From Cellulomonas sp. APG4 (GTDB lineage: Bacteria > Actinomycetota > Actinomycetes > Actinomycetales > Cellulomonadaceae): a DNA stretch of 42,372 nucleotides. The DNA is taken from the NCBI RefSeq assembly GCF_009996735.1, contig NZ_JAACYI010000029.1, forward strand, positions 1-42,372, read 5' to 3'. Made by a program: the position numbers and the translations under genes. Below the pieces are notes generated by a model. That model was not told where the DNA came from. It searched no databases and was given only the letters and a program-made list of their open reading frames with translations. Below are positions 9,911-24,481 of the stretch, piece by piece. Numbering within the stretch: position 1 is the first letter of the stretch; every line of letters begins with the position of its first letter.

Positions 9911-10908
9911 GAGGTCAGGGCCTCCACGGCCGCCTCGACCCAGGCCTGGCCCGAGGCCGGGCCGCCGAACATCCAGATGCCGTCGGGCAGGCGGTGGGTC
10001 GCGTCCGCGGTCACGAACGGCAGCTGCTCCCACACGGCGTTGCCGGTGAGGCCGTCGACGAACGGGTCGCCGCCCGCGCCGTCGTTGGCGACGTACAGGA
10101 AGTGCGTGCCCTCGCCCAGCTGCGTGAGGCCCTCGACGTCGGTCGACGCGAGCCCGTAGTCGGGGTCGCCCTCGCCGGTCCACGCGTTCTCGAGGCCGAG
10201 CAGGCCCGCGAGCCCGCCCAGGTAGGAGCCCTCGGTGTACATGCGGATCGACACCGCGCCGTCGGCGAGCCAGCCGTCGGCCATCGCGTACGACGCGCCC
10301 TCGAGCCCCGCCTCCGCGAGGTCGGCCTTGGCCTGCTCGACCGTCGCGTCGAGGTCGGCGAGCGCCGCCTCGGCCGCGTCCTGCGTGCCGGTCGCCGTGG
10401 CGAGCACGTCGAGCGTGCGCTCCATGTGGCCGATCGGGTCGGAGGCGTCCGAGCCGCGCAGCGCGATGACGGGCACCTGCTCCTCGAGCTGGGCGATGAC
10501 CTCCTCGGGCAGATCCGTCGTCGCGACCACGAGGTCCGCGTCGAGGGCCGCGATCGCCTCGAGGCTCGGCTCGCCCCGCATGCCGACGTCGGGCACGGAC
10601 TCGTCGAGCGGGACCACGGTCGCCCAGGTGTTGTAGCCGGCGACGTCGGCCTGGCCCACGGGGGTCACGCCGAGGGTCAGCAGGTTCTCGGTGAGCCCCC
10701 ACTCGAGCGAGACGACGTCCGTCGCGGGAGCGTCGAGCGTGACCTCGCCGCGGTCGTCGGTCACGGTGACGGGACCCGCGTCCTCGGGCGCGGCGGTGGC
10801 CGGGTCCGACTCGGCCGCGGGGGCCTCGGTGGTGCCGCAGGCAGACAGCAGCAGGGCTGCGACGGCGCCGGTCACGACGGCGGCGGGAAGGGTGCGCAGG
10901 GTTCGCAT
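9907..10908 (-). CDS. Iron-siderophore ABC transporter substrate-binding lipoprotein
   Basis: This 333-residue lipoprotein has a signal peptide with a lipobox (LLLSACG, cysteine near residue 24) and a FepB/FecB-type binding fold. Family blocks include DRGEVTLDAPATDVVSLEW near residue 60, LEAIAALDADLVVATT in the middle, and a C-terminal helix region (SGQAWVEAAVEAL). It binds a ferric siderophore or heme-like ligand outside the membrane; the exact ligand is not visible. The ATG at 10908 follows a GAGGA ribosome site. The gap of 81 bases from the ATPase stop holds no strong signal. It overlaps the permease gene by four bases. Confidence 0.92.
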   Translation of the reverse strand: MRTLRTLPAAVVTGAVAALLLSACGTTEAPAAESDPATAAPEDAGPVTVTDDRGEVTLDAPATDVVSLEWGLTENLLTLGVTPVGQADVAGYNTWATVVPLDESVPDVGMRGEPSLEAIAALDADLVVATTDLPEEVIAQLEEQVPVIALRGSDASDPIGHMERTLDVLATATGTQDAAEAALADLDATVEQAKADLAEAGLEGASYAMADGWLADGAVSIRMYTEGSYLGGLAGLLGLENAWTGEGDPDYGLASTDVEGLTQLGEGTHFLYVANDGAGGDPFVDGLTGNAVWEQLPFVTADATHRLPDGIWMFGGPASGQAWVEAAVEALTS

Positions 10909-10989
10909 GGGTGTCCTCGGTGATGGGTGGAGACGGACGGCAGTGGGGCTGGGGCGCGCCGGCCGCGCGCGAGAGGGACGGTCAGGTGC

Positions 10990-11820
10990 TCACAGGGGTG
11001 CGAGCTCGGGCTCGGCGGGACGACGACGGCGCACGTGCCGGCCCACCGGGTGGGTGCGTACGACGCCGTCGTGCACCGTGACCTCGACGCGCAGGCCGTA
11101 GGTCGCCGTGAGTGCGTCCGCGGTGAGCACCTCGACGGCGGTGCCCGCACCGACCACCTCTCCCCGACTGAGGAGCACCACGTGGTCGGCGACGGCCGCG
11201 GCCTGGTCGAGGTCGTGCAGCACCACACCCACCGCGACGCCGTGCTCGTCGGCGAGGTCACGCACCAGGTCGAGGATCTCGACCTGGTAGCGCAGGTCGA
11301 GGTAGGTGGTGGGCTCGTCGAGCAGCAGCACGCGCGTGTCCTGCGCGAGACAGGTCGCGAGCCACACGCGTTGGCGCTCCCCGCCCGACAGCTCGTCGAC
11401 CGCCCGCTCCGCCATGGCGGCCACACCCGTGACCTCCATCGCCCACGCGATCGCCCGCGCACCGTCGGGGTCGTCCTGGCGCCAGCGGCCGCGGTACGGG
11501 TGGCGGCCGTAGCCGACCACCTCGCGCACGCTCACGCCCGACGGCGTGGGACGTGACTGCGAGAGCAGCGTCACGCGCCGCGCGAACTCCTTGGCGCTCA
11601 ACGCCGAGGCGTCCTGGTCATCGAGCCGCACGTCGCCGGCCTCCGCGCGGTGCAGGCGGGCGAGCGCCCGCAGCACGGTCGACTTGCCCGAGCCGTTGGG
11701 CCCGACGAGCGCGGTGACCCGGCCGGGCGCGAGTGCGACGTCGGCCCCGGGCACGACGACGGTCCCGTGGTACGCGAGGCGCAGTCCGTGGCCGCTGAGC
11801 GCGGCACCCGAGGTGGTCAC
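10990..11820 (-). CDS. Iron-siderophore ABC transporter ATP-binding protein
   Basis: This 276-residue ATPase is of the FecE/FepC type. It has Walker A GPNGSGKST near residue 40, a Q-loop segment with LLSQSRPTPSGVSVREVVGYGRHPY typical of siderophore importers (shown in part), signature LSGGERQRVW, Walker B VLLLDEPTTYLDL and the H-loop HDLDQA. It is the first gene of the importer operon, followed by binding protein, fused permease and SRPBCC protein. The GTG start at 11820 lies only about 8 bases after an iron-box/-10 element, and no ribosome site precedes it, so the mRNA is probably leaderless. Confidence 0.93.
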   Translation of the reverse strand: MTTSGAALSGHGLRLAYHGTVVVPGADVALAPGRVTALVGPNGSGKSTVLRALARLHRAEAGDVRLDDQDASALSAKEFARRVTLLSQSRPTPSGVSVREVVGYGRHPYRGRWRQDDPDGARAIAWAMEVTGVAAMAERAVDELSGGERQRVWLATCLAQDTRVLLLDEPTTYLDLRYQVEILDLVRDLADEHGVAVGVVLHDLDQAAAVADHVVLLSRGEVVGAGTAVEVLTADALTATYGLRVEVTVHDGVVRTHPVGRHVRRRRPAEPELAPL

Positions 11821-11827
11821 GGGCGCG

Positions 11828-11857
11828 AGGTTAGCCTCACCTAACTCGTGCTGTCAC
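11828..11857 (-). promoter_or_regulatory. Predicted leaderless promoter of the siderophore operon
   Basis: On the minus strand GTGACA (11857-11852) and TAACCT (11833-11828) are 18 bases apart. Transcription would begin about 7 bases beyond the -10, at or next to the GTG start codon at 11820. The absence of a ribosome site agrees with a leaderless transcript, which is common in actinobacteria. The iron box covers the spacer and the -10. Confidence 0.6.
11829..11844 (-). promoter_or_regulatory. Iron box (IdeR/DmdR/DtxR-type operator)
   Basis: The minus strand reads TTAGGTGAGGCTAACC, which differs at one position from the first 16 bases of the known iron-box consensus TTAGGTTAGGCTAACC. It overlaps the predicted -10 element of the siderophore operon. 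By family knowledge, iron-loaded IdeR/DtxR would bind here and block transcription when iron is sufficient. Confidence 0.88.
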
Positions 11858-11938: not shown

Positions 11939-13483
11939 TCAGGGACGGGTCGGGAGCTCGAGCTGCTCGAGGTCGCCGAGGGAGGCGGTACGGAGCACGC
12001 CGTCGTGATCCGTCACGCGGAGCTCGCCGTCAGCCCGGGCGACGTCGGCCACGAGCTCGGCCCGGTGCTCGCCGTGCGCCCACGCCACGTGCAGCACGGG
12101 GCCGTCGACGGCCCACGTGGCCGCGCCCCCGAACGCCGGGTGCCCCGCGCGCAGGCGCAACGCCGCGAGCTGGCGCCGTACGACGTCGCGCGACAGGGCC
12201 GCGTCCACCTCCGCCGGGGTGAAGTGGTGCCGGTTGATGTCGCGGCCCACGCCCGTGCGCTCGAGGAGCTCCATGTCGTTGCTCCCCGCGAGCAGGCCCA
12301 CGTAGTAGACCTGCGGGATCCCGGGCACGAAGAGCTGGATCAGACGCGCCAGCAGGTACCGGTCGTCGCGTGCGCCCAGAGCGTCGTAGAAGGTGCAGTT
12401 CACCTGGTAGAGGTCGAGGTTGCTCGCCGCTCCCCCGGTCGCGCGGCGGCTCTCGCCCCGGCTCTGCTCGTGGATCCACTCGACGAGGTGGTCGATCTCG
12501 GCGTCCTCGAGCAGCCCCGGCTCGCCGGCCGGGCCGCGTCCGGCGTCGACGATCCCGATGCCGTCGTGCGTGTCGAGCACCGTCACGGCGTTGGTGGGTC
12601 GCACGGAGAGCCACTGGGCGAGCGGTGCCAGGTCGCTCGCCGCGAAGGCGTGCAGCAGCAGCGGGGGCAGGGCGAAGTCGTAGACGTGGTCCACCGTGCG
12701 CGCGATCTCGATCTGCTGGCGGTAGTAGCCGTGGATCTCGAGCAGCACCTGCGCGCCGCGCTCGTGCGCGAGCTCGCGCACGCGGGCGACGGCGTCGGCG
12801 GCCTCGGGGATCATGAAGCAGCTCGTCCCGCGCACCTTGGCGACGTAGCCCACCGCGTCGAGCCGGACCATGCGCACCCCGGCCGTCGTCTGGGCGTCGA
12901 GCACGCGCGTGAGGTACTCCCACGCGAGCGGGCTGCGGATGTCCAGGTCCACCTGCTGCGGCGTGAACGTGGTCCACACGAGCCGCCGCTCGTCGCCCAG
13001 GGTCATCGCGGTGAACGGCAGGCCCGGCCGGGGGCGGTAGATCGCGGCCAGCTCCGCCTCGGTCGCGCCGTCGGGGAACACCGACCCGTAGGTGAGGAAC
13101 ATCTCGGCCCACCGCGACGCGCGCCCGTGCCGCACGACGTCGGCGAACGCCTCCGACGCGCTCGAGACGTGGTTCACGATGAGGTCGGCCATCACCACGT
13201 GGTCGCTCGCGAGCGCCGCGACGTCCTCCCAGGTGCCCAGACGGGGGTCGACCGTGGCGTGGTCGACGGGGTCGAAGCCCGCGTCCGCGCCGTCGTACGG
13301 CGTGAAGAAGGGCAGCACGTGCACGCCGTCGAACGCGCCCGCCAACGGGCCGCGAAGCAGCTCGGCGAGCGCCTCGACCGAGCCGCCCAGGCGGTCGGCG
13401 TAGGCGATCAGCTGCGGCCCCGTGGGCACGGCGGGCACCGTGCCTCCGCGCCGTCCTGCACCCTGCGGTGAGGTCCCGCTCAT
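11939..13483 (-). CDS. gtfA: Sucrose phosphorylase (GH13)
   Basis: This 514-residue cytoplasmic enzyme converts sucrose and phosphate to glucose 1-phosphate and fructose, saving one ATP per sucrose. It shows the GH13 subfamily 18 pattern: GPQLIAYADRLGG near residue 22, VLPFFTPYDGADAGFDP near 57, and GIPQVYYVGLLAG near the C-terminal third. The catalytic residues are visible: nucleophile D209 in MVRLDAVGY, acid/base E249 in LLEIHGYY, and D307 in LDTHDGIGI. Length fits the family (about 490-510). The ATG at 13483 has a GGGAGG ribosome site and lies one base after the stop of the upstream hydrolase gene. Related phosphorylases act on sucrose 6'-phosphate or glucosylglycerate, so the exact substrate should be regarded as probable, not proven. 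Confidence 0.92.
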   Translation of the reverse strand: MSGTSPQGAGRRGGTVPAVPTGPQLIAYADRLGGSVEALAELLRGPLAGAFDGVHVLPFFTPYDGADAGFDPVDHATVDPRLGTWEDVAALASDHVVMADLIVNHVSSASEAFADVVRHGRASRWAEMFLTYGSVFPDGATEAELAAIYRPRPGLPFTAMTLGDERRLVWTTFTPQQVDLDIRSPLAWEYLTRVLDAQTTAGVRMVRLDAVGYVAKVRGTSCFMIPEAADAVARVRELAHERGAQVLLEIHGYYRQQIEIARTVDHVYDFALPPLLLHAFAASDLAPLAQWLSVRPTNAVTVLDTHDGIGIVDAGRGPAGEPGLLEDAEIDHLVEWIHEQSRGESRRATGGAASNLDLYQVNCTFYDALGARDDRYLLARLIQLFVPGIPQVYYVGLLAGSNDMELLERTGVGRDINRHHFTPAEVDAALSRDVVRRQLAALRLRAGHPAFGGAATWAVDGPVLHVAWAHGEHRAELVADVARADGELRVTDHDGVLRTASLGDLEQLELPTRP

Positions 13484-13484
13484 G

Positions 13485-14294
13485 TCACACGCCTCCCTCG
13501 ACGTCCTCCGTCGGCCGCACGCGTGTCCCCGCGTGCCGGCACACCATCGCCACGGTCTCCCGGATCACCAGGTCGCGCGTGGGCACCGTGGACCAGCCGT
13601 GGTCCGCTCCGGGGACCACGGTGAGCTCCATCGCGTCGCCGTAGACCTCGCGGTACGCCTCGGCGTAGCGGACGGGCACGAAGTCCGCGTCGCCGTGCAG
13701 CACGCGCACCGGCCCGGAGTACCCGCGCGCCCGCCCGTACACGTCGAACCCCGGCGCCTCGGCGAACAGCGCAGGGCCGATGCGCCGTCCGTAGAAGTCG
13801 AACCAGCCCACGCGCTCGACGACGTCCGTGGGCTGGCCCTGGAGCCGCCCGGCCGTGATCTCGTCGACGAACACCGCGGCGACCGACCAGAACGTCAGCG
13901 AGCGCACGCGCTCCGGACGCTGCGCCGCGACCAGGCTCGCGACGACGGCGCCCATGCTGAGCCCGACGAGGTGCAGGTCGTGCGCGTCGACCGCGTCGAG
14001 CTCGGCGATCCTGTCGAGGAGCTCGACCGAGTCGCGCACGTCGCGCTCGACGGAGATGTCGGCGAAGTCGCCGTCGCTCTCACCCTGACCGGCACGGTCC
14101 ATCGCGACGACGGCGACGCCCCGGGCGTTCAGGGCCCGCGCGAGGTCGACGAACGACCCGGCCTCGGTGCGCGAACCGCCGAACCCGTGGTGCAGCACCG
14201 CCGTCGGGCACGGCCCGGCGACGCCGTCGGGCAGGTAGAGGCTGCCGCGCAGCACGTGCGGGCCTACCTCGAGGGCGAGCGGGCTCAGGTTCAT
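13485..14294 (-). CDS. Alpha/beta hydrolase
   Basis: This 269-residue protein has the alpha/beta-hydrolase fold: an oxyanion region LHHGFGGSRTEAG near residue 40, MDRAGQGESDG, the nucleophile elbow GLSMGA with serine near residue 118, an acid-strand segment VRVLHGDADFVPV and the catalytic histidine in GADHGW near residue 240. It has no signal peptide, so it acts in the cytoplasm on an ester or amide. The ATG overlaps the stop of the CocE-like gene by four bases (ATGA), and its own stop is one base from the sucrose phosphorylase ATG, so these three genes are translationally linked. The substrate is unknown; an acyl group on a sugar is my inference from context. Confidence 0.9.
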   Translation of the reverse strand: MNLSPLALEVGPHVLRGSLYLPDGVAGPCPTAVLHHGFGGSRTEAGSFVDLARALNARGVAVVAMDRAGQGESDGDFADISVERDVRDSVELLDRIAELDAVDAHDLHLVGLSMGAVVASLVAAQRPERVRSLTFWSVAAVFVDEITAGRLQGQPTDVVERVGWFDFYGRRIGPALFAEAPGFDVYGRARGYSGPVRVLHGDADFVPVRYAEAYREVYGDAMELTVVPGADHGWSTVPTRDLVIRETVAMVCRHAGTRVRPTEDVEGGV

Positions 14295-16012
14295 CGGGTC
14301 TCCTCGACGTCCAGGACCGGCAGCGTGAGGTACGACGCCGCGTCGTGGTCCACGTGCACCCGCTGGTGCGCCACGACGTGCTCGGCCCGCGGGGTGTGCG
14401 CCCACGTGCCGCCAGTGCCGGGGTTCACGTCGAACCGCGGGTGGTTGGAGCTCGCGACGTCGACGCGCAGCCGATGGCCGGCCGCGAAGCGCTGGGCGGT
14501 GGGGCCCACCTCGATCTCGAGGCGGTGCGCGACGTCCGGCTCGAGCAGCGTCTCGTGCGTGTCGGAGGTCGCGAAGCGGGCGCGCACCACGCCGTCGACG
14601 ACGTTGAGCGCCCGCCCGTCGGGATGCACGTCGACGAGCGTCGCGCACCAGTCGGCGTCCCGCGCCGACGTGCTCGCGACGAGGCTGAGCCGCACGACGC
14701 CGACGACGTCCAGGTCGGCCTCGAGCGGTGCGGTCTCGAAGCGCACGACGTCGGGCCGCGCGTCCTTGGCGCGCTGGTCCCACGAGCCGGTGCCGTACGC
14801 GGCCTCGCCGCGCAGGAACAGGTTGGGGCCGCCGAGGGTCGGGACGGGGTCGGACGGGTCGTGCACGTAGGTGACCGGTGGTGCGCCGACGGCGGGTGGC
14901 TCGACGGCCAACGTGCCGTCGCCGTGCAGGAAGTACGTGCGGTCGCGGCTCTCGGGCGGCGGCCACGCGCGGGTACCGATCCACCGGCCCGCGCCCATGA
15001 GGAAGAGGCGGACCGGCGGGTCCGCGGGCGGGTCCGTCGGCTCGTCCCGCACCCATCCCGCGAGGGCGTCGAGCATCTCGGCCTCGAGCCCCAGGCCCAG
15101 GGCGTCGGCCTCGAGGCCGTGGTGCACCTCGCCGAGCGAGGCGAGCCCCGGCCCGTGCCCCCACGGCCCGACGACGAGGCGTGACGCCGGGTGCCGGGAC
15201 CGCTCGAACTGGGCCAGGGTGCCGCGCACGAAGATGTCGTGCCAGCCGCCCACGTAGAACGACGGGAGCGGGTCGCGCACCGGCAGCGCGCGTGCCGCCC
15301 ACCAGTCGTCGCGCGCGGGGTGGTCGACCCAGGCACGCCAGCTCGGCAGGCCGACGTCGAGCACGGCCGTCGGCAGGTCGGCAGGTCCGTCCCCCGCGAC
15401 GATCGTGTCGAAGTCCGCCATCGCACGACGCCACCGCGCGAGGCCGGCGTCGTCGGCCTCGCCGCGCGCCGCGGCCCGCGCGAGCCCGCCGCCCGCCTGC
15501 GCGAGCGCCCACCCGAGGCCCGAGCCGAGCAGCAGCGCACCGTCCTGGTGCACCACGTCGTACGGGTCTCCCGGGCACACCCCGAGCCCCATCGCGCGCA
15601 GGGCCGGTGGCCGCTCGCCGGCCGCGAAGAGCTGGGTCTGGGCGAGGTACGAGCGGCCGTACGTCACCACGTCCCCGCTCGACCACGGCTGGGCCGCGCA
15701 CCACGAGATGACGTCCGCGCCGTCGGCTGCGTCGTCGCGCCACGGCTCGAACCCGCCGGCGGACGCGCCCGTGCCGCGGTGGCTCACGCGCACGAGGGCG
15801 AGCCCGCGTCGCAGCACCCCCCACGGGTCGACGTCGAACCGGGTGCCCTCGAGCGGGTACGGCGAGCGCATGAGCAGCACGGGGGCCGGGGCGCCGTCGG
15901 CGGGACGCGTGACGACGGCGCGCAGCACGGTGCCGTCCCGCAGCGGGACCGGGACGTCGTGCTCGGTGAGGCTGCGCAGCGCCGTGCTGGCGGGCTGTGC
16001 CGGTGCGGTCAT
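14291..16012 (-). CDS. CocE/NonD family (S15) hydrolase
   Basis: This 573-residue protein belongs to the X-Pro dipeptidyl-peptidase/cocaine-esterase (S15) family. The N-terminal hydrolase domain contains VPLRDGTVLRAVVTRPADG, LLMRSPYP, RVSHRGTGASAGG and the nucleophile elbow TYGRSYLAQTQL with serine at residue 121. The elbow lacks the usual glycine two positions after Tyr (GRSYLA instead of GxSYxG). The C-terminal jelly-roll domain follows from about residue 330 and includes LEIEVGPTAQRFAAGHRLRVDVASSNHPRFDVNP in pieces. Members hydrolyse acyl esters or X-Pro peptides. No signal peptide is present. ATG at 16012 has a GGAAGG site. Linked tightly to the downstream hydrolase and sucrose phosphorylase genes. 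Confidence 0.9.
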   Translation of the reverse strand: MTAPAQPASTALRSLTEHDVPVPLRDGTVLRAVVTRPADGAPAPVLLMRSPYPLEGTRFDVDPWGVLRRGLALVRVSHRGTGASAGGFEPWRDDAADGADVISWCAAQPWSSGDVVTYGRSYLAQTQLFAAGERPPALRAMGLGVCPGDPYDVVHQDGALLLGSGLGWALAQAGGGLARAAARGEADDAGLARWRRAMADFDTIVAGDGPADLPTAVLDVGLPSWRAWVDHPARDDWWAARALPVRDPLPSFYVGGWHDIFVRGTLAQFERSRHPASRLVVGPWGHGPGLASLGEVHHGLEADALGLGLEAEMLDALAGWVRDEPTDPPADPPVRLFLMGAGRWIGTRAWPPPESRDRTYFLHGDGTLAVEPPAVGAPPVTYVHDPSDPVPTLGGPNLFLRGEAAYGTGSWDQRAKDARPDVVRFETAPLEADLDVVGVVRLSLVASTSARDADWCATLVDVHPDGRALNVVDGVVRARFATSDTHETLLEPDVAHRLEIEVGPTAQRFAAGHRLRVDVASSNHPRFDVNPGTGGTWAHTPRAEHVVAHQRVHVDHDAASYLTLPVLDVEETR

Positions 16013-16093
16013 GGGTCGCCTTCCGTGCGGGTGCGAGGTCAGGGGCGGGTCGTCACGCGTCGGGGCCGGGCGCGGCGCGTGGCCCGGGCGGGC

Positions 16094-17128
16094 TCAGCCG
16101 GACTCGTCGAAGCGCGTGGTGCGCAGCCGGTGCAGCACGAGCGCGGCGGCGACGCGCACGCGACCGGGCGCGGTGCCGACACCGAAGCCGAGCTGCTCCT
16201 CGAGATGGGCCTGGCGCGCCTGGACGGTCGAGTGGTGCAGGCCCAGCAGCTGCGCCGCCGCGCGCACGCTCTCGGTGCGCGCGAGCGCCTCGAGCGTGTC
16301 GAGGGCCCACGGCTCGCGCGCCGCGGCGCCCAGGCGCACGACGTCGGGCGGGGGCGCGTCGTGCAGGTCGAGCGCGCCGAGGGCCGCGAGCGCCCCGAGC
16401 TCGTCCCACGCCACCTGCGGCACGAGCCGGGACGAGACGCGCAGCGCCAGGAGCGCCTGGTCCCACGAGCGGGGCACGCCCGCGAGGGTGACGAGGCTCC
16501 CGACGCCGTGACGGGGCGCCGCCCAGTCCTCGCTCGACCCGACGATCGAGGCCCGCACGGGACCGTACGGCGTCGCGACGACGGCGGAGCGGGGCACCGA
16601 CGCGTCCTCGGCGCCAGCGGGCACCGCGACCACGCGCACGGTCGCCGCGTCCCGCAGCCGCAGCCGGCGTGAGGCCTTGCGCCGCGCGTCGTCGGTCGAC
16701 GTCGACGAGAGCAGGATCTCGATCGCACCCGCGTCGTCGAGGTCGAGCGGGCTCACGCGCTCGATCGTCAGGTGCAGGCAGCTCGCGAGACGCTCGAGCA
16801 GCACGGCGTCGTGGGCCGACTCGCCTGCGGGCCGCTCGAGCCACACCACACCACCCGAGCCGTCGGCGAGCTCGTGGTGCGGCCACGACCGCACGCTCTC
16901 GATGTCGTGCACCGGCGGCATCGCGTGCCCAGCGGCGTCCACCCGCAGCCAGATGTGGTGCAGCGGGTGCGCGAAGCCCGCGGGGCAGCCCGCGAGCACG
17001 GCCGCGCCGCGCACGAACGGCTCGAGTCCGGCCTTCTGCGCGAGCAGCGTGTCGAAGAACGTGATGATCTTGAGCGCCGCGGACGCGTCCTCGTCGAGGG
17101 CGCTGAGCCGGTGCAGCAGCTCCTTCAT
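16094..17128 (-). CDS. PucR-like helix-turn-helix regulator
   Basis: This 344-residue protein has the layout of PucR-type regulators: an N-terminal GAF-like region (AALKIITFFDTLLAQKAGLEPFVRGAAVLAGCPAG in pieces, residues 15-55), a central region, and a C-terminal HTH near residues 280-325 (ESVRAAAQLLGLHHSTVQARQAHLEEQLG in pieces). The start at 17128 has a GAGGAGG ribosome site; the longer frame is unsupported. It sits inside the transporter/hydrolase/phosphorylase cluster, 81 bases before the CocE-like gene and 100 bases after an esterase gene, so it probably controls this cluster. The inducer is unknown. The HTH matches the PucR_C pattern only moderately (HSTVQAR where HRNTLRYR is usual). 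Confidence 0.8.
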   Translation of the reverse strand: MKELLHRLSALDEDASAALKIITFFDTLLAQKAGLEPFVRGAAVLAGCPAGFAHPLHHIWLRVDAAGHAMPPVHDIESVRSWPHHELADGSGGVVWLERPAGESAHDAVLLERLASCLHLTIERVSPLDLDDAGAIEILLSSTSTDDARRKASRRLRLRDAATVRVVAVPAGAEDASVPRSAVVATPYGPVRASIVGSSEDWAAPRHGVGSLVTLAGVPRSWDQALLALRVSSRLVPQVAWDELGALAALGALDLHDAPPPDVVRLGAAAREPWALDTLEALARTESVRAAAQLLGLHHSTVQARQAHLEEQLGFGVGTAPGRVRVAAALVLHRLRTTRFDESG

Positions 17129-17228
17129 CGCACCCCTCCTCGGGCTCGCGGAGCAGCGTCCGCACCGCGCTGACCTGCGCACCCAGGGTACGCGCGCACG
17201 ACGTCGGGCACGGCCCGCACCGCGCCGC

Positions 17229-18218
17229 CTACTGCCGGCCCGTGAAGCCGAGCGCACGGTCCATCCAGCTGTGCAGCGCCTGGAGCGAACCGCGCGAGAT
17301 GGCCGTGTGGCTCAACGTCTGGAACCCGTGGAAACCACCGGCCCACACGTGCAGCTCGGCCTGGCCGCCGCACGCCCAGATGCGCTGGGCGTACGTGACG
17401 GCCTCGTCCCGGAACACCTCGGCGCTGCCCACCTCGACGAAGGCCGGTGGCAGGCCACCCAGGTCCGTCGCGCGGGACGGGGCCGCGTGGGCCGGGACGG
17501 CGTCGCTCCCGTGCAGGTCACCCAGCAGAGAGCGCCAGCCGAGCTCGTTCTCCGCGGCGTTCCACAGACCGGTCGGGTACTGCCGCGCCGAGACCGTGTC
17601 GTTGCGGTCGTCGAGCATCGGGGCGAGCAGCAGCTGACCGCCCACGCGGGGGCCGCCGCGGTCGCGGGCCATGAGGGTCACGGCGGCGGCGAGACCACCG
17701 CCCGCGCTGATCCCCGCGATGAGTCCCGTCTCGACGTTGAGGCCCAGCTCACCCGCGTTCTCCTCGAGCCACAGCAACCCCGCGTAGCAGTCCTCCTGGG
17801 GAGTGGGGAACGCGTGCTCGGGCGCGAGCCGGTACTCGATCGTCGCGACCACGGCGTTGTAGCGGTCGATCCAGTCGAGGAACGTGTCCGCGCCGCTCCA
17901 GCGGTTGCCGAGCATCATGCCGCCGCCGTGCACGTAGTACACGAGCGGGCTCGTGCGGATCCTGTCCTTGCGGTGGATCACGCTCATCGTGACCTCGACG
18001 CCGTCGAACGACCGGACCGCGTGGTCCCTGCGCACCAGGCCGCGGCGGTCCAGCACGGTCAGCGTGGCCTCGGCCGCCGCCTGCTCCTCGGCCCGCTTGA
18101 GCGGCACGTCGTCCGCGGTGATGGGCGACGGGTCACCCATCATCTGCAGCGCGAGGGCCGCCGCGCTCTCGGGGTCGAGCGGCGGTGCGGTCACCGCCGC
18201 GCTCGTGTGGTGGCTCAT
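17229..18218 (-). CDS. Alpha/beta hydrolase (hormone-sensitive-lipase type esterase)
   Basis: This 329-residue protein belongs to the HSL-like esterase group (alpha/beta hydrolase fold-3). The oxyanion motif HGGG lies at residues 97-100, the nucleophile elbow GISAGG has serine at residue 171, the acid is in VGSAEVFRDE and the histidine in GGFHGF near residue 305. EYRLAPEHAFP is also characteristic. Such enzymes cleave short to medium acyl esters. There is no signal peptide, so the substrate must be imported. The ATG overlaps the stop of the ABC permease gene by four bases, tying esterase expression to uptake. Confidence 0.9.
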   Translation of the reverse strand: MSHHTSAAVTAPPLDPESAAALALQMMGDPSPITADDVPLKRAEEQAAAEATLTVLDRRGLVRRDHAVRSFDGVEVTMSVIHRKDRIRTSPLVYYVHGGGMMLGNRWSGADTFLDWIDRYNAVVATIEYRLAPEHAFPTPQEDCYAGLLWLEENAGELGLNVETGLIAGISAGGGLAAAVTLMARDRGGPRVGGQLLLAPMLDDRNDTVSARQYPTGLWNAAENELGWRSLLGDLHGSDAVPAHAAPSRATDLGGLPPAFVEVGSAEVFRDEAVTYAQRIWACGGQAELHVWAGGFHGFQTLSHTAISRGSLQALHSWMDRALGFTGRQ

Positions 18219-19048
18219 CCCTTGACCGATCCCTGCAGCAGAGCAGCGACGAACTGCTTCTGGAAGACGACGAAGACGACGATGGTGGGCAGCATGATCA
18301 GCAACGCCCCGGCCGACAGCAGCACGATGTCCGTGCCGTACTGGCCCTGGAACGCACCGAGCGCGCCCGCGACGGTGCGCTTGAGCGGGTCGTCCATCAT
18401 CACCAGGGCGACGATGAACTGGTTCCAGGTCCACAGGCTGTAGAGCACCGCGAGGGTCGACAGCGCCGGGCGCGCGAGCGGCAGGTGCACGTGCCGCAGG
18501 GCCTTCCAGGGTCCTGCCCCGTCGATCTGCGAGGCCTCGGTGAGCTCCTTGGGCACGCCCGAGAAGTGCGCCCGCATCCAGAAGATGCCGAACGGCATGT
18601 AGAGCGCGATGAGCGGCAGCGCGATCGCGGGACGGGTGTTGAGCATGCCCGCCTCGCGCATCAGGTAGTACAGCGGCGTGATCAGTCCCTCGAACGGGAT
18701 GGTCAGGCCCAGCAGGAACACCAGGAAGGCCAGGCCGCCGCCGGGCACCCGCAGCACCGCGATGCCGTAGGCGGCCAGGGTCGCGAGCACGAGCGCCAAA
18801 GGGACCACCATGAGCACGAGCAGCGCGCTCGACCCCATGAGCGTGGGCACCTTGGCCATGGTGAACGCGGTCGCGAAGTTCTCGGGGTGCGGGGGCGTGG
18901 GCACCGACAGGCCGGTCGGGTTGGACCCGGCCTCCTGGAGCGCCGCACTGAGCATCGAGACGAAGGGCAGCAGCGTGAAGGCGACCAGGACGAGCAGGAT
19001 CAGCCGGCCCGCCCACGCCTCGGTGCGGCCCGTGCGGACGGCACTCAT
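18215..19048 (-). CDS. Carbohydrate ABC transporter permease (MalG-like)
   Basis: This 277-residue membrane protein is the second permease of a CUT1-type sugar importer. It has about six hydrophobic segments and the cytoplasmic EAA loop EASQIDGAGPWKALRHVHLPLARP in pieces near residue 190, with the invariant glycine in place. It begins with ATG at 19048, overlapping the stop of the first permease gene (ATGA), and its own stop overlaps the esterase start in the same way. No ATPase gene is in the cluster; such importers often share a multitask MsiK-type ATPase encoded elsewhere in actinobacteria. Confidence 0.93.
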   Translation of the reverse strand: MSAVRTGRTEAWAGRLILLVLVAFTLLPFVSMLSAALQEAGSNPTGLSVPTPPHPENFATAFTMAKVPTLMGSSALLVLMVVPLALVLATLAAYGIAVLRVPGGGLAFLVFLLGLTIPFEGLITPLYYLMREAGMLNTRPAIALPLIALYMPFGIFWMRAHFSGVPKELTEASQIDGAGPWKALRHVHLPLARPALSTLAVLYSLWTWNQFIVALVMMDDPLKRTVAGALGAFQGQYGTDIVLLSAGALLIMLPTIVVFVVFQKQFVAALLQGSVKG

Positions 19049-20001
19049 GAGCGCTCCCTGACGAGGTGCTGGAGCGGGACGACGACGGCGAGCACGAGCG
19101 TCATGAGCACCACGGCCATGGCGGACGCGGCGCCGACCCGCGACTGGTTGAAGGCGAGCTGGTAGATGTCGACGCCTGGCACCATCGTGGCGCCGCCGGG
19201 ACCGCCGAGGGTCATCACGTAGATGACGTCGAAGCTCGCGAGCGCGGCGATGAGGGTGACCGTGAGGCACACCGCGAGCTCGGCGCGCACGCCGGGCAGC
19301 GTCACCGCGAAGAACTCCTGCACCGGCCCGGCACCGTCCACGCGGGCCGCGTCGTACAGCGCTGGGTCGATCTTCGCCATGCCCGTGCTGAGCAGCATGG
19401 TGCACAGACCCACGAGCACCCACGTACCGACGACGCCGACGGCGGGCAGCGCGAGGTCGAAGTCCGCGAGCCAGGGCCGGGTGAGCGAGCCGAGGCCCAC
19501 GGCCGTGAGGATCTGGTTGATCGCGCCGTCGCTCGCGTACAGCCACGTCCACGCGATGCCGGCGCCCACGAGCGGCACCACCTGCGGGAGGAACAGCGCG
19601 GTCTGGGCCGCGCGCGCCCAGCGCGAGGACAGGCTGCGCGTGAGCGTCGCGGCGACCAGGCCGATCGCGATCGACAGCACGCTGTAGAAGAAGATGAGCT
19701 TGAACGAGTTGGCGAGGGCCGAGAGCCGGTCGGGATCGCTGAAGACCTCGCGGTAGTTGTCGAGGCCCGCCCACGTCGCGGTGCCGATGCCGTTCCAGTC
19801 GTAGAACGAGTACTGGACCGACATCGCGAACGGGCGCAGCACGTACGCCGCGTAGATCGCGAGCGCCGGGGCGACGAACGCCCAGCCGAGCCACCGGTGG
19901 CGCCGGGAGCCCCGGCGAGGACGACGACGCGCCGTCGTCGCGCGGACGGCGCCCGCCGCCGGGACCGAGGCCCCGACGGCGGGCGGCTGTGCGAGGGACA
20001 T
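19045..20001 (-). CDS. Carbohydrate ABC transporter permease (MalF-like)
   Basis: This 318-residue membrane protein is the first permease of the CUT1-type importer. A basic N-terminus (RRRPRRGSRRHR) precedes the first helix (WLGWAFVAPALAIYAAYVL), followed by SVQYSFYDWNGIG and WAGLDNYREVFSDP, which are hallmarks of MalF/UgpA-type permeases. The EAA loop is DAARVDGAGPVQEFFAVTLPG near residue 225, split here over its core. ATG at 20001 overlaps the binding-protein stop as TGATG. The protein pairs with the MalG-like permease encoded next. Confidence 0.93.
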   Translation of the reverse strand: MSLAQPPAVGASVPAAGAVRATTARRRPRRGSRRHRWLGWAFVAPALAIYAAYVLRPFAMSVQYSFYDWNGIGTATWAGLDNYREVFSDPDRLSALANSFKLIFFYSVLSIAIGLVAATLTRSLSSRWARAAQTALFLPQVVPLVGAGIAWTWLYASDGAINQILTAVGLGSLTRPWLADFDLALPAVGVVGTWVLVGLCTMLLSTGMAKIDPALYDAARVDGAGPVQEFFAVTLPGVRAELAVCLTVTLIAALASFDVIYVMTLGGPGGATMVPGVDIYQLAFNQSRVGAASAMAVVLMTLVLAVVVPLQHLVRERS

Positions 20002-21383
20002 CAGCGACCGAGCTCCGTCTCGTACGCGGCCTGGACGCTGCTCGCGAACTCCTCCGGGGTCATGCGGTCGGTCACCAGCAGCTGCAGGTTCGGGCCGATG
20101 GTCGACGTGAGGATGCCGGTGGTCGCGTTGCCGATGAAGTCGATCGCGCCGTCGTCCTCGGCGAGCTGGGCCGCGGCGGCGAGGGTCTCCTCGATCACCG
20201 AGCCCTCAGGGGCCGTGGGTGCCGGCAGGTCGGCAGGGCCGCCCGGCGTCGAGCCGGTGACGTCGAGCACGATCTGCCGCGCCGTCTCGTCCGTGTGGAT
20301 CCAGTTGAGGAAGTACGCGATCGCGTCCTTGTCGGCGGCGGTCTCGGGGACCACGTAGGTGGCGGGCGCCGCCATCGCGACGTGCGGGTCGCCCTCCTCG
20401 ACCGTCGGGAAGAGCATGAAGCCGAACTCCCCCGGCGCGTTGGCGGTCAGTCCGCCGGCCTCCCAGTCGCCGTTGGGCATGAACAGGCCCTCGCCACCGG
20501 TGAAGCGGCCGACCATGGTCGCGTAGTCGATCGCGTTGAGGTCGTCCGGGAAGTACCCGGCACCCGCCCACTCCTGGATGGTCTCAGCCGCGGTGACCGA
20601 CGAGTCGAGCTCGAAGGTGGCCTCCGGGGCGACGTAGATCCACTCCTTGAGCGCGTCGAGACCGCTCTGCTGGTTCTGGACCATCTGGTAGGGGAACGCC
20701 ACCGTGAAGTCGGCGTTGCCGACCATCATCGGCACCTCGCCGGCCTCGGCGGCCGTCGCCATCATGTCCTCGAGCTCGTCGATCGTGGCCGGAGGCATGG
20801 TCAGGCCGAGCTCCTCGGCCTTGGCCTTGTTGTAGTAGAGGCCCGTGGTGTTGTAGCCCACGCCCAGGGCGTAGAGCGAGCCGCTCCCCCGCGCGCCGTC
20901 GTCGTCGACCCGCACCTGGTTGAGGGTGCCCTGCGGCCAGTCGTTCCAGCCGTACGCCTCGGCGTAGGGGTCGAGGTTCGCGAGCAGGCCGTCCTTGGCG
21001 GCCGACGCGACCGTGGGGAAGCGGATCAGGTCGGGGGCGTCAGGGGCGTTGATGATGCGGACGGCGTTCTGCGCGAGGTTCTGGAAGGAGTCCGCCCGGA
21101 CGCTGAACGTGACGTTCGGGTACTGGTCCGTGAACTCCTGCTGGAGCGCGTCCCAGGCCTCGGTGAAGCCGCTCTCGAGGTAGAGGTCGAGCGTGACCGG
21201 CTCGTCGGTGAGCTCGGTCGGCACCTCGGCCGCGGGCGCGTCGTCGGCCGGGGCCTCCGTCTCGTCGGTGCCGCCCCCTCCGGGCGGTGCGCAGGCCGCG
21301 GCGAGGGCCACGGCGGCGAGGACGCCCCCGGCACGCATGAGCGTGCGGCGGGCGGAGGTGGTGCGTGAGCGCGTGTCCCGCAT
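20001..21383 (-). CDS. Extracellular sugar-binding lipoprotein (family 1)
   Basis: This 460-residue lipoprotein has a signal peptide with a lipobox LAAACA (cysteine near residue 31) and a Gly/Asp-rich linker. The mature part is a family 1 solute-binding protein: LDLYLESGFTEAWDALQQEF near residue 65, APDLIRF, LYALGVGYNTTGLYYNKAKAEELGL in pieces, and YFLNWIHTDETARQI in the C-terminal third. Family members bind oligosaccharides or glycosides. The ATG at 21383 follows a clear AAGGAG ribosome site. As first gene of the cluster, it would select the substrate whose breakdown involves three hydrolases and sucrose phosphorylase. Confidence 0.92.
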   Translation of the reverse strand: MRDTRSRTTSARRTLMRAGGVLAAVALAAACAPPGGGGTDETEAPADDAPAAEVPTELTDEPVTLDLYLESGFTEAWDALQQEFTDQYPNVTFSVRADSFQNLAQNAVRIINAPDAPDLIRFPTVASAAKDGLLANLDPYAEAYGWNDWPQGTLNQVRVDDDGARGSGSLYALGVGYNTTGLYYNKAKAEELGLTMPPATIDELEDMMATAAEAGEVPMMVGNADFTVAFPYQMVQNQQSGLDALKEWIYVAPEATFELDSSVTAAETIQEWAGAGYFPDDLNAIDYATMVGRFTGGEGLFMPNGDWEAGGLTANAPGEFGFMLFPTVEEGDPHVAMAAPATYVVPETAADKDAIAYFLNWIHTDETARQIVLDVTGSTPGGPADLPAPTAPEGSVIEETLAAAAQLAEDDGAIDFIGNATTGILTSTIGPNLQLLVTDRMTPEEFASSVQAAYETELGR

Positions 21384-21538
21384 GTCTTCTCCTTCGAAGT
21401 CACGATCCAGGGTGGGGATGCTGGCTCCGACAAGTCTGGCGGTCGAAAGTGCTCCCGAGTACCGCCGACCCAGCCCACCTGAGCCCTCCTGACCCGCCAC
21501 CTGGCGGGCGCGACCCGCCCGCCTCGCCCCTCCCCACC

Positions 21539-21617: not shown

Positions 21618-22328
21618 TCAGGAGCGCGCGGCGGCCAGGGCCTCGGCGTAGGCGGGGCGGGTGCCCGTGGAGCGCACCTCCTGGAGAACGTGGTCGCGCA
21701 CGCCCATGCCCTCGAGCAGGGCGGTGAGCTCGGCGACGTCGTCGGACGTCAGGACCGTCGGGTCCACCGTGGTGCGCACCTGCACCGGCACGCCCGCGTC
21801 GAGCACGAGCCGCAGCGAGCGCAGCGCGAGCCGCGCGCTCGCCGGGACACCCGTGATCTCGGCGTACCGGCCCGGAGGCGCCTTCACGTCCAGCCCCACC
21901 CAGTCCACCCACGGGAGCACCTGCGCGAGCCGACGCGGGTAGGCGCCCGCGGTGTGCAGCCCCACCCCGAAGCCCGCCTCGCGCACCTCCCGGACGGCGT
22001 CCACCAGGCCGGCCTGACGCGTGGGCTCGCCACCCGAGAAGACGACGCCGTCGAGCAGGCCGTGACGCCGCGCGAGCAGGTCCCGTACGTGCGCCCACGC
22101 GACCGAGCCGGGCGTCCGCGGGTCGATCAGGCCCGGGTTGTGGCAGTAGGTGCAGCTCCACGGGCAGCCCTGGAGGAACACGGTCGCGACGAGCCGACCG
22201 GGCCAGTCGCACGTCGACAGCGGTACGAGCCCCGCGACCACCACCGGCTCCGCCGCATGCCCGACGGCGTGCCGTGCGCTCGGCGTGGGCACGCGGGCGG
22301 CCAGGGGCACGCCGTCGGGCGCGCTCAT
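21618..22328 (-). CDS. nrdG: Anaerobic ribonucleotide reductase activating protein
   Basis: This 236-residue radical-SAM enzyme generates the glycyl radical on NrdD under anoxic conditions. The cluster-binding motif CPWSCTYC places cysteines at 55, 59 and 62 in the CxxxCxxC pattern, and GVVFSGGEP follows as the SAM-binding GGE motif. LSTCDWPGRLVATVFLQGC precedes the cluster, as expected for the longer NrdG type found in actinobacteria. The ATG at 22328 overlaps the nrdD stop (ATGA). Confidence 0.93.
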   Translation of the reverse strand: MSAPDGVPLAARVPTPSARHAVGHAAEPVVVAGLVPLSTCDWPGRLVATVFLQGCPWSCTYCHNPGLIDPRTPGSVAWAHVRDLLARRHGLLDGVVFSGGEPTRQAGLVDAVREVREAGFGVGLHTAGAYPRRLAQVLPWVDWVGLDVKAPPGRYAEITGVPASARLALRSLRLVLDAGVPVQVRTTVDPTVLTSDDVAELTALLEGMGVRDHVLQEVRSTGTRPAYAEALAAARS

Positions 22329-24481
22329 CGCGCGGCGCCCGCGAGCGCGGGCCGCGCGAGGCCCGCGGAGTCCTCGGTGAAGTGCACGCGCTCGGCGTGC
22401 TCGCCCTTCTTGCCGATGTTGAACGAGCTCACCGGCCGGTGGTAGCCCATGACCCGGGTCCACACCTCGCACACCACCGGCTCGGCCGCGGGGTCGGCCG
22501 CCGCGCACGTGGGGCACGTCGCGTGCTCGCCCGCGAGGTAGCCGTGGTGCGGGCAGATCGAGAACGTCGGCGTGACCGTGAGGTAGGGCAGGCGGTGCTT
22601 CTCGAGCGCGCGGCGCACGAGCGTGCGGCACGCGTCGCCCGTCGAGAGCTGTTCGGACATGTACAGGTGCAGCACGGTGCCGCCGGTGTACCTGGCCTGG
22701 AGCTCGTCCTGCCGCTCGAGCGCCTCGAACGGGTCGTCGGTGAAGCCGACCGGGAGCTGGGTCGAGTTCGTGTAGTACGGGTTCTCGTCGGTGCCCGCCT
22801 GGAGGATCCCGGGGAACCGGCGGCGGTCCTCCTTCGCGAAGCGGTAGGTGGTGCCCTCGGCCGGCGTCGCCTCGAGGTTGTAGAGGTGACCCGTGGCCTC
22901 CTGGAACTCGACCATGCGCGCGCGCACGTGGTCGAGCAGCCGCAGCGCGAGCGCGTGCCCCTCGGGGGTCGTGATGTCGTGCTCGTCGTCCGTGAGGTTG
23001 CGGATCATCTCGTTGACGCCGTTGACGCCGATGGTCGAGAAGTGGTTCGCGAGCCCGCGCCCCAGGTAGCGGCGCGTGTAGGGGTAGAGGCCGTCGGCGA
23101 TCAGCCGGTCGACGACCTTGCGCTTGACCTCGAGGCCGTCCCGCGCGAGCAGCAGCAGCCGGTCCAGCTCGGCGAAGAGACCGTCGACGTCGCGACGGTG
23201 CGTGTACCCGAGGCGCGCGCAGTTGACGGTGATGACGCCCAGCGAGCCGGTCTGCTCGGCCGAGCCGAACAGGCCGTTGCCTCGGGCCAGGAGCTCGCGC
23301 AGGTCGAGCTGGAGCCGGCAGCACATCGACCGGATCTGGCCCGGCTCGAGGTCGGAGTTCAGGAAGTTCTGGAAGTACGGCAGGCCGTAGCGCGCCGTCA
23401 TCTCGAACAGGCGCTCGGCGTTCTCGGACTCCCACGGGAAGTCGTGGGTGATGTTGTACGTGGGGATGGGGAACGTGAACACCCGTCCCGACGCGTCGCC
23501 CACCGTCATCACGTCGATGTACGCCCGGTTGACGAGGTCCATCTCGGCCTGGAGCTCGCCGTAGGTGAAGTCCTGCTCGACGCCGCCGATCACCGGCACC
23601 TGGTCGCGCAGGTCGTCGGGGCAGGTCCAGTCGAAGGTCAGGTTCGTGAAGGGGGTCTGGGTGCCCCAGCGCGAGGGCACGTTGAGGTTGTAGACGAGCT
23701 CCTGGATGCCCTGGCGCACCTCGTCGTAGCCCAGCCCGTCGACGCGCACGAACGGCGCCATGTAGGTGTCGAACGAGCTGAACGCCTGCGCGCCGGCCCA
23801 CTCGTTCTGCATGGTGCCGAGGAAGTTGACGATCTGCCCCACGGCCGACGAGAAGTGCTTGGGCGGCCCCGCCTCGACCTTGCCCGGCACGCCGTTGAGC
23901 CCCTCGGTCAGCAGCGTGCGCAGCGACCAGCCCGCGCAGTACCCCGCGAGCATGTCGAGGTCGTGGATGTGCAGCGCCCCGTCGCGGTGCGCGTGCGCGA
24001 GCTCGGGGGCGTACACGTGCGAGAGCCAGTAGTTCGCGACCACCTTGCCCGAGGTGTTGAGCACGAGACCGCCCAGCGAGTAGCCCTGGTTCGCGTTCGC
24101 GTTGACGCGCCAGTCCGAGCGGTCGAGGTACTCGTCGATCGAGCTCTCGACCTCCACGACGGTGCGGGCGCCCTCGCGCAGCCGCGCGTGCTGCTCGCGG
24201 TAGGCGATGTAGGTGCGCGCAGTCCCGGTGTGGCCGGTCGCGAGCAGCGCCTGCTCGACGAGGTCCTGCACGTGCTCGACGTGCGGGTGGTCGACGCCCT
24301 CGGCGATCAGCTCGTCGAGGACGCGCGCGACGACGGGGGCGGCGTAGGCGGCCGCGTGCTCGCCGTCGGTCGCACCGGACGCGAGACCCGCGCGCTCGAC
24401 CGCCGACGCGATGCGCGCCACGTCGAACACCGCCGTCGAGCCGTCGCGCCGGACCACCCCGCTGGGAGCACTGCCGTTCAT
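22325..24481 (-). CDS. nrdD: Anaerobic ribonucleoside-triphosphate reductase
   Basis: This 718-residue class III reductase makes dNTPs without oxygen. The N-terminal ATP-cone (VVRRDGSTAVFDVARIASAVERAG in pieces, residues 8-95) suggests allosteric control. The catalytic core contains HIHDLDM, the double cysteine SMCCRLQLD, and NLNVPSRWGTQTPFTNLTFDW in pieces. A zinc-type Cys cluster CPHHGYLAGEHATCPTC and the glycyl-radical segment RVMGYHRPVSSFNIGKKGEH in pieces lie at the C-terminus. The ATG at 24481 follows a GGAGG site. Two NrdR boxes are just upstream. Its presence implies growth or survival without oxygen. Confidence 0.95.
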   Translation of the reverse strand: MNGSAPSGVVRRDGSTAVFDVARIASAVERAGLASGATDGEHAAAYAAPVVARVLDELIAEGVDHPHVEHVQDLVEQALLATGHTGTARTYIAYREQHARLREGARTVVEVESSIDEYLDRSDWRVNANANQGYSLGGLVLNTSGKVVANYWLSHVYAPELAHAHRDGALHIHDLDMLAGYCAGWSLRTLLTEGLNGVPGKVEAGPPKHFSSAVGQIVNFLGTMQNEWAGAQAFSSFDTYMAPFVRVDGLGYDEVRQGIQELVYNLNVPSRWGTQTPFTNLTFDWTCPDDLRDQVPVIGGVEQDFTYGELQAEMDLVNRAYIDVMTVGDASGRVFTFPIPTYNITHDFPWESENAERLFEMTARYGLPYFQNFLNSDLEPGQIRSMCCRLQLDLRELLARGNGLFGSAEQTGSLGVITVNCARLGYTHRRDVDGLFAELDRLLLLARDGLEVKRKVVDRLIADGLYPYTRRYLGRGLANHFSTIGVNGVNEMIRNLTDDEHDITTPEGHALALRLLDHVRARMVEFQEATGHLYNLEATPAEGTTYRFAKEDRRRFPGILQAGTDENPYYTNSTQLPVGFTDDPFEALERQDELQARYTGGTVLHLYMSEQLSTGDACRTLVRRALEKHRLPYLTVTPTFSICPHHGYLAGEHATCPTCAAADPAAEPVVCEVWTRVMGYHRPVSSFNIGKKGEHAERVHFTEDSAGLARPALAGAAR

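Follow-up and report, generated by a model that had tools for sequence, protein, structure and literature searches.

A Cellulomonas gene cluster proposed to import, deacylate and phosphorolyse acylated sucrose

Why a sucrose phosphorylase should lie in one run of genes with a sugar importer and three unrelated alpha/beta hydrolases is the question raised by a locus of Cellulomonas sp. APG4. The window analysed here is the complete 42,372-base contig NZ_JAACYI010000029.1 of this high-GC genome; it harbours eight genes, all on the minus strand and spanning positions 21383 to 11939: SBP (solute-binding protein), ABCa and ABCb (permeases), HSL (esterase), a PucR-like regulator gene, CocE and ABH (two further alpha/beta hydrolases), and SucP (sucrose phosphorylase). 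The preferred answer, held with a probability of roughly 0.6, is that the cluster would accomplish uptake, cytoplasmic deacylation and phosphorolysis of O-acylated sucrose. This scheme had been put forward in a preliminary description of the sequence, and the comparisons reported below lend it support through synteny, the exchange of both enzyme types within one importer family and the position of ABH beside SucP. Conserved neighbourhoods in relatives and counts at control loci indicate an association beyond chance; the substrate, the order of steps, the type of acyl group and the regulation are proposed from gene content and conservation.

Recurrence of the enzyme set in relatives

At a threshold of 1e-60, SucP was detected in 79 of the 221 genomes of the family. 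Altogether 71 SucP loci of the family and the order were examined, best matches first and supplemented by 14 extra copies, and 37 of them contain both HSL and the importer beside SucP. The share rises to 34 of 46 loci if SucP identity is at least 62 %, a cut set after the data had been seen; two of the negatives (L032 and L082) are truncated by contig ends, and one further SucP of 66 % identity (G066, L270) has neither HSL nor the importer alongside. Clusters that combine the importer with HSL and SucP extend over several families of the order. The 4-nt overlap between ABCb and HSL was observed in 31 of 32 relatives, with start codons picked by script near the expected position, the exception being L097 with only a remnant of HSL. 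In the relatives, importer and HSL form a conserved unit. Among named genomes, Cellulomonas bogoriensis comes closest at this locus (L115; SBP 79 % identical, among the best 80 of 212 relatives). Synteny of the hydrolases with the phosphorylase, on the absence of which the preliminary description would have abandoned its proposal, is present for HSL (37 of 71 loci) as well as for ABH (5 of 7 genomes). The conserved gene order for which it had proposed a comparison applies to the core, which recurs, and not to the exact eight-gene set, which is confined to 2 of the 221 family genomes, namely the window and C. bogoriensis (G001).

A scan of named genomes with an SBP alignment yielded 212 relatives, the best 80 of which were kept. 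Neighbour families were read from one representative each, and a panel of esterases and of sucrose or fructoside enzymes was searched within 8 kb of each importer locus. A panel esterase is located there at 55 of the 80 importer loci versus 1 of 35 control SBP_bac_1 loci from relatives, a sucrose or fructoside enzyme at 60 of 80 versus 1 of 35, and both together at 42 of 80 versus none of the 35; seven importer loci have neither, four of them with short flanks. The commonest pair is a family VIII esterase with a GH32-like protein (17 of 80). HSL is paired with SucP at 12 loci (14 with extra esterases), and with a GH32-like protein or with GH68 at five each, while esterase-only loci include ten with HSL alone and two with GDSL alone. 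In members from Cellulomonas, Georgenia, Demequina and Xylanimonas, HSL and SucP come after the importer. A family VIII carboxylesterase (best PDB match of the representative, carboxylesterase 8j5v, 3.9e-64) accompanies the GH32-like protein at most Micromonospora and Devosia loci. The loci of Microbispora, Herbidospora and Jiangella contain a GH68 enzyme (best PDB match, levansucrase 7bj4, 6.4e-76), to which Microbispora adds a ROK kinase, and a GDSL esterase was found in Cellulomonas aerilata and in an Acidothermus metagenome-assembled genome. Hence unrelated families fill both the esterase slot (HSL or family VIII) and the sucrose-enzyme slot (SucP, GH68 or GH32-like), and it appears that this three-step toolkit was put together on more than one occasion among related bacteria, with different enzymes being used.

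A further combination is present in genome G094 (L111), where an operon-like run comprises LacI, an HSL type, an MFS transporter, ABH, a GDSL esterase and SucP, i.e. three esterases of different families with a sugar-type transporter and SucP, in the absence of an ABC importer; it is a separate, parallel assembly with a different transporter. Homologues of ABH (1e-40) are rare, occurring in 7 of 220 family genomes, in all seven with another esterase, in three directly beside SucP, in two one gene off, and in four with a PucR-type importer. Among 149 genomes sampled from the order (1e-50), one more was detected (G269), accompanied by HSL, MFS and LacI; a short contig of G085 (L205) carries ABH, GDSL and SucP in a row. 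CocE (E 1e-60) is present in 14 of 221 family genomes. All 14 loci were mapped, and a general linkage of CocE to SucP had to be rejected, the two being clustered only in the window and C. bogoriensis.

These distributions bear on the quite improbable alternative of a plain sucrose importer with its phosphorylase, in which the three hydrolases would be passengers or would detoxify unrelated, co-induced esters. Family knowledge has sucrose phosphorylase acting by itself on free sucrose, alpha/beta hydrolases are abundant, and one locus (L108) combines importer and SucP without HSL; the excess of unrelated esterases over the control loci, the conserved HSL/permease overlap and the repetition of the three-esterase design with another transporter in L111 argue against it. 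Of the 14 extra SucP copies, thirteen were fetched from genomes that also possess the importer-SucP module (G283 having it with the remnant of HSL), and 11 of these 13 have no such importer or HSL alongside, which suggests that the module copy serves a feed different from plain sucrose; the other two belong to the clusters L257 and L258 described below. The fourteenth, from the module-free genome G066, has only distant permeases nearby (25–31 %).

Protein families and gene layout

The importer is of the CUT1 type, with one SBP_bac_1 protein and two BPD_transp_1 permeases encoded together. In a Pfam scan of the eight window proteins (reporting limit E 0.001), the 460-aa CUT1-type solute-binding lipoprotein SBP (20001–21383) matched PF01547 (E 3.8e-25), and the permeases ABCa (19045–20001; 318 aa) and ABCb (18215–19048; 277 aa) matched PF00528. 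The N-terminus of SBP is of the lipoprotein type and its Cys31 is invariant in an alignment of 15 rows including the window. A structure prediction from 15 sequences resulted in a poor model (pLDDT 54). The domain scan revealed no ATP-binding subunit among the eight genes, the rest of the genome not having been searched for one; the importer presumably relies on a shared MsiK-type ATPase encoded elsewhere.

SucP (11939–13483; 514 aa) belongs to GH13_18, scores 382.4 bits with TIGR03852 (cut-off 334.4) and has the Bifidobacterium sucrose phosphorylase 1r7a as its best PDB sequence match (4e-165). It is identical to 1r7a at all 18 active- and acceptor-site positions checked by alignment, and no signal peptide was recognised by eye. 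By family score and site residues SucP is assigned as a sucrose phosphorylase. It shares the family and the catalytic and acceptor residues with the bifidobacterial enzyme and differs from it in being clustered with an importer and three esterases.

The 329-aa HSL protein (17229–18218) is an Abhydrolase_3 (family IV) esterase (PF07859, E 2.9e-48) with the HGGG and GxSxG motifs and the triad S171/D271/H297; its best PDB sequence match is lipase 7wol (1.4e-68), the third being heroin esterase 1lzk (1.1e-52). Across 34 rows including the window, Ser and Asp are each retained in 33 and His in all 34, the Ser exception being a wrong-frame open reading frame of L097 and the Asp exception a Ser in L100. 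CocE (14291–16012; 573 aa) reaches 338 bits as a CocE/NonD-type hydrolase (TIGR00976, cut-off 66) and matches best cocaine esterase 3i2h in the PDB (8.5e-71), the triad residues Ser, Asp and His being aligned. Similarity to cocaine esterase (CocE, 1ju3/3i2h) is near full-length; the difference lies in its membership of a SucP cluster, shared by only 2 of the 14 CocE-bearing family genomes. ABH (13485–14294; 269 aa) is a feruloyl/cinnamoyl-esterase-like alpha/beta hydrolase, best matched in the PDB by ferulic acid esterase 7z2u (1e-53), whose triad Ser, Asp and His align with those of ABH; the lower matches include cinnamoyl and chlorogenic acid esterases. In distinction from these otherwise similar bacterial esterases, it is probably cytoplasmic and is linked to a sucrose phosphorylase. 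Judged by alignment, the three hydrolases belong to different alpha/beta hydrolase families with intact triads.

A role in peptide or amide metabolism, with CocE as X-Pro peptidase, ABH as S33-type aminopeptidase and the sugar genes adjacent by chance, appears very improbable. It could draw on the Pfam names Peptidase_S15 and Hydrolase_4 among the matches of the hydrolases. CocE, however, attains only 33.0 bits as X-Pro dipeptidyl-peptidase (cut-off 711) versus 338 as CocE/NonD, the closest structures to ABH are the esterases just named, and in 5 of 7 genomes ABH and SucP are neighbours or have a single gene between them. A pure peptidase reading was rejected on these family scores, which favour the ester-cleaving nature assumed for the hydrolases in the preliminary description.

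The regulator gene (16094–17128; 344 aa) encodes a C-terminal HTH_30 domain only (PF13556, 30.3 bits, cut-off 27) and also matches a LysR-type HTH (29.5 bits, cut-off 26.6). No N-terminal PucR domain was reported by the Pfam scan at E 0.001, hence the designation PucR-like.

SBP and ABCa have one base in common, and 4-nt overlaps join ABCa to ABCb, ABCb to HSL (ATGA) and CocE to ABH (ATGA). ABH ends at position 13485 and the ATG of SucP begins at 13483, leaving a 1-nt gap. The regulator gene is separated by 100 nt from HSL and by 81 nt from CocE, and a single transcription unit is therefore only a candidate. Gene calls and family scans agree with the eight co-directional genes and named families of the preliminary description, as does the start-stop overlap tying HSL to the importer, and no signal peptide was recognised by eye in any of the three hydrolases. 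Its claim that overlaps tie CocE and ABH to SucP holds for the CocE/ABH junction and fails for ABH/SucP.

The surroundings of the cluster were inspected by eye. Downstream of SucP (7808–11844) lie genes of an iron-siderophore-type uptake system, i.e. a FecCD-like permease fusion, a binding protein and an ATPase, with a DtxR-box-like palindrome (~11828–11844) before the ATPase gene. Just upstream of SBP, on the same strand (21618–24481), an anaerobic ribonucleotide reductase and its activating radical-SAM enzyme are encoded.

The window-type clade and the lineages of SucP

In the HSL tree, one supported group (100/97) unites the proteins of the window, L115, L116, L117, L118, L127 and L208, and L257 is its sister (98/100). 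All members of this clade, L257 included, have the order SBP-ABCa-ABCb-HSL plus a PucR-like gene (34 % identity in L257), and their additional enzymes vary. CocE, ABH and SucP occur in the window and C. bogoriensis, ABH, SucP and AXE1 in C. citrea (where a PF00756 esterase match lies at a greater distance), ABH and AXE1 in G018, AXE1 and a PF00756 esterase in L117, and a second HSL in L116; L257 contains a GH13_18 variant with changed acceptor residues, an MFS transporter and a PF00756 esterase. In Streptomyces muensis (L118, 3984–19281) acyl-CoA dehydrogenases, an AMP-binding enzyme and an FAA hydrolase surround the importer cluster, and these neighbours may handle the released acid.

Upstream of SBP, the palindrome CCGCCA-N2-TGGCGG is present in 8 of 8 PucR-type loci at −114 to −135; six copies are exact and two deviate at one of the 12 fixed bases. 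The copy of the window, a candidate operator without strand assignment (21494–21507), lies 111–124 nt upstream of the SBP start. As the best shared 14-mer it accumulates 6 mismatches over seven relatives, versus 21–25 in 20 shuffles and 20 for the next unrelated shared word, which falls in the ribosome-binding region. In C. citrea it sits upstream of SBP and of the homologous start of the divergent ABH-SucP genes. The window holds one exact copy and the genome two, compared with five for the reversed pattern. No genome-wide regulon was seen in this count, so that the palindrome is informative by its conserved place rather than by number.

In a tree of 39 hand-chosen rows (L106 was omitted for lack of a SucP gene call), the phosphorylases of such clusters are spread over different branches. 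SucPs of the LacI-type modules constitute one clade (99/97), those of the window and C. bogoriensis branch with stand-alone copies of the same genus (100/100), that of C. citrea pairs with its own paralogue (100/99), that of G094 falls into another clade (99/95) and that of L257 is placed far out. Read most simply, this tree has SucP entering esterase/transporter clusters on several occasions.

Two genomes that also have the importer-HSL-SucP module possess a second importer-HSL-PucR cluster (L257, 5742–15024; L258, 6001–15325). The MFS transporter and PF00756 esterase were both checked in L257. The GH13_18 proteins of both clusters carry the changes P134R, R135K and D342Q (1r7a numbering), and possibly represent non-sucrose phosphorylases for another acyl glycoside. 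Altered residues occur as well in L131 (4352–11130), where importer and HSL are followed by a 317-aa protein without Pfam match at 1e-5 and by a GH13_18-like protein (564 aa, 37 % identical to SucP); a member of the 317-aa family also follows HSL in Actinotalea fermentans L138. In G211 (L206, 7761–12314), ABH is accompanied by an HSL-type esterase, GH39 and a zinc alcohol dehydrogenase, and the set may serve an acylated non-sucrose glycoside.

Such variants are what would be expected if the substrate of the window were another acylated glycoside, e.g. an acylated raffinose or fructo-oligosaccharide or an acyl alpha-glucoside, with SucP acting on a later product or a side substrate. The altered acceptor residues in L131, L257 and L258, the GH39 neighbour in L206 and the esterase-only loci of the importer family are in its favour. 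It is nevertheless considered unlikely, since enzymes linked to sucrose or beta-fructosides (SucP, GH68, GH32-like) are near 60 of 80 importer loci, the window SucP retains all sucrose acceptor-site residues checked, and SucP is the sole member of a glycoside hydrolase family among the eight window proteins.

Proposed pathway and its relation to known systems

For the preferred acyl-sucrose pathway, the lipoprotein SBP and the two permeases would carry the intact ester into the cytoplasm, as is suggested by the lack of recognisable signal peptides in the hydrolases and by the HSL/permease overlap. HSL would then strip one class of acyl group, and in the variant of the window the feruloyl-esterase-like ABH and the cocaine-esterase-like CocE would remove others; the presence of several esterase families makes it probable that the substrate of this variant carries mixed acyl groups. 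SucP and phosphate would finally split the freed sucrose into glucose 1-phosphate and fructose. Control of the cluster is probably exerted by the PucR-like regulator, acting via the palindrome upstream of SBP.

Several observations weigh against this pathway. Esterases of these superfamilies are promiscuous, and their substrate is not fixed by homology. Within the modules, L108 dispenses with HSL, L097 has it cut to a remnant between importer and SucP (10744–11034), which suggests loss of the deacylase in one lineage, and the HSL of L100 has Ser where the catalytic Asp is expected. SBP and HSL of the window type are only 35–46 % identical to their LacI-type counterparts, so that the substrate may differ. 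Four window-type loci (L116, L117, L118 and L208) have no SucP alongside; no SucP was found at 1e-30 in the genomes of L116 and L118, and that of L117 has a partial SucP at a contig edge, which speaks against sucrose as substrate in every member of the clade. The SucPs nearest to that of the window (in G012 and G014) stand alone, and a label test against the LacI-module rows alone is compatible with one SucP origin in PucR-type clusters. The panel was built after module loci had been seen, with seeds from 8 of the 80 loci, some of which match their own seed, and both GDSL-only loci are seeds. The 80 loci are the best of 212 and count near relatives repeatedly; the 35 controls derive from the 48 best-scoring hits listed, of which 13, mostly on short contigs, were omitted, and two controls overlap. 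The match of the GH32-like protein to GH32 is weak (1e-14). None of six genomes with such clusters yielded an intradiol dioxygenase (PF00775); the acid from an aromatic acyl group would probably not be used via the beta-ketoadipate route and, if released, would either be excreted or enter a different route.

Plants make many acylated sucroses, among them trichome acylsugars and phenylpropanoid sucrose esters. A narrower version of the pathway, offered tentatively and with considerable doubt, is that the variant of the window represents a dedicated phenylpropanoid-sucrose-ester system for cinnamoyl-, benzoyl-type and acetyl groups, with deacylases divided by acyl type, subsequent phosphorolysis and a PucR-like regulator with its own operator, within a convergent guild of acyl-sucrose scavengers in Actinomycetota and Devosia. 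ABH would act on hydroxycinnamoyl, CocE on aroyl and HSL (AXE1 in relatives) on acetyl groups. Phenylpropanoid sucrose esters bear cinnamates and sometimes acetyl or p-hydroxybenzoyl groups, according to PMC11397724, and this pattern would fit ABH, AXE1 and CocE.

The general logic of the proposed pathway has precedents. In beta-mannan systems of Bacillota, acetylated oligosaccharides are imported, deacetylated intracellularly and phosphorolysed, so that, as proposed here, cytoplasmic esterases act on an imported acylated saccharide and a phosphorylase keeps energy as sugar 1-phosphate. Those systems differ in using mannan oligosaccharides, GH130 and other esterase families in place of sucrose and GH13_18; no GH130 mannoside phosphorylase was detected by the Pfam scan among the eight window proteins, and the cluster would work like a mannan-type system without being a member. 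In the agrocinopine (acc) systems of Agrobacterium, modified sucrose is taken up and the sugar is released inside the cell. This likewise involves import of a derivatised sucrose and intracellular liberation of the sugar, and differs by a phosphodiester, a peptide-type importer and a phosphodiesterase where a carboxylic ester is proposed here. Given the likeness to the mannan scheme, the acyl-sucrose scheme is not categorically new. Among the top matches in the open-access literature, no bacterial operon importing and dismantling acylated sucroses was described, and the portions considered of PMC8950772, PMC6521584 and PMC11397724 describe no such cluster.

If the proposed pathway is true, the cluster would provide a set of paired esterases with predictable substrates and enzymes for the selective deacylation of sucrose esters. 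An orphan importer family would also gain a testable ligand, and the use of acyl-sucroses by soil and plant bacteria a genomic marker.

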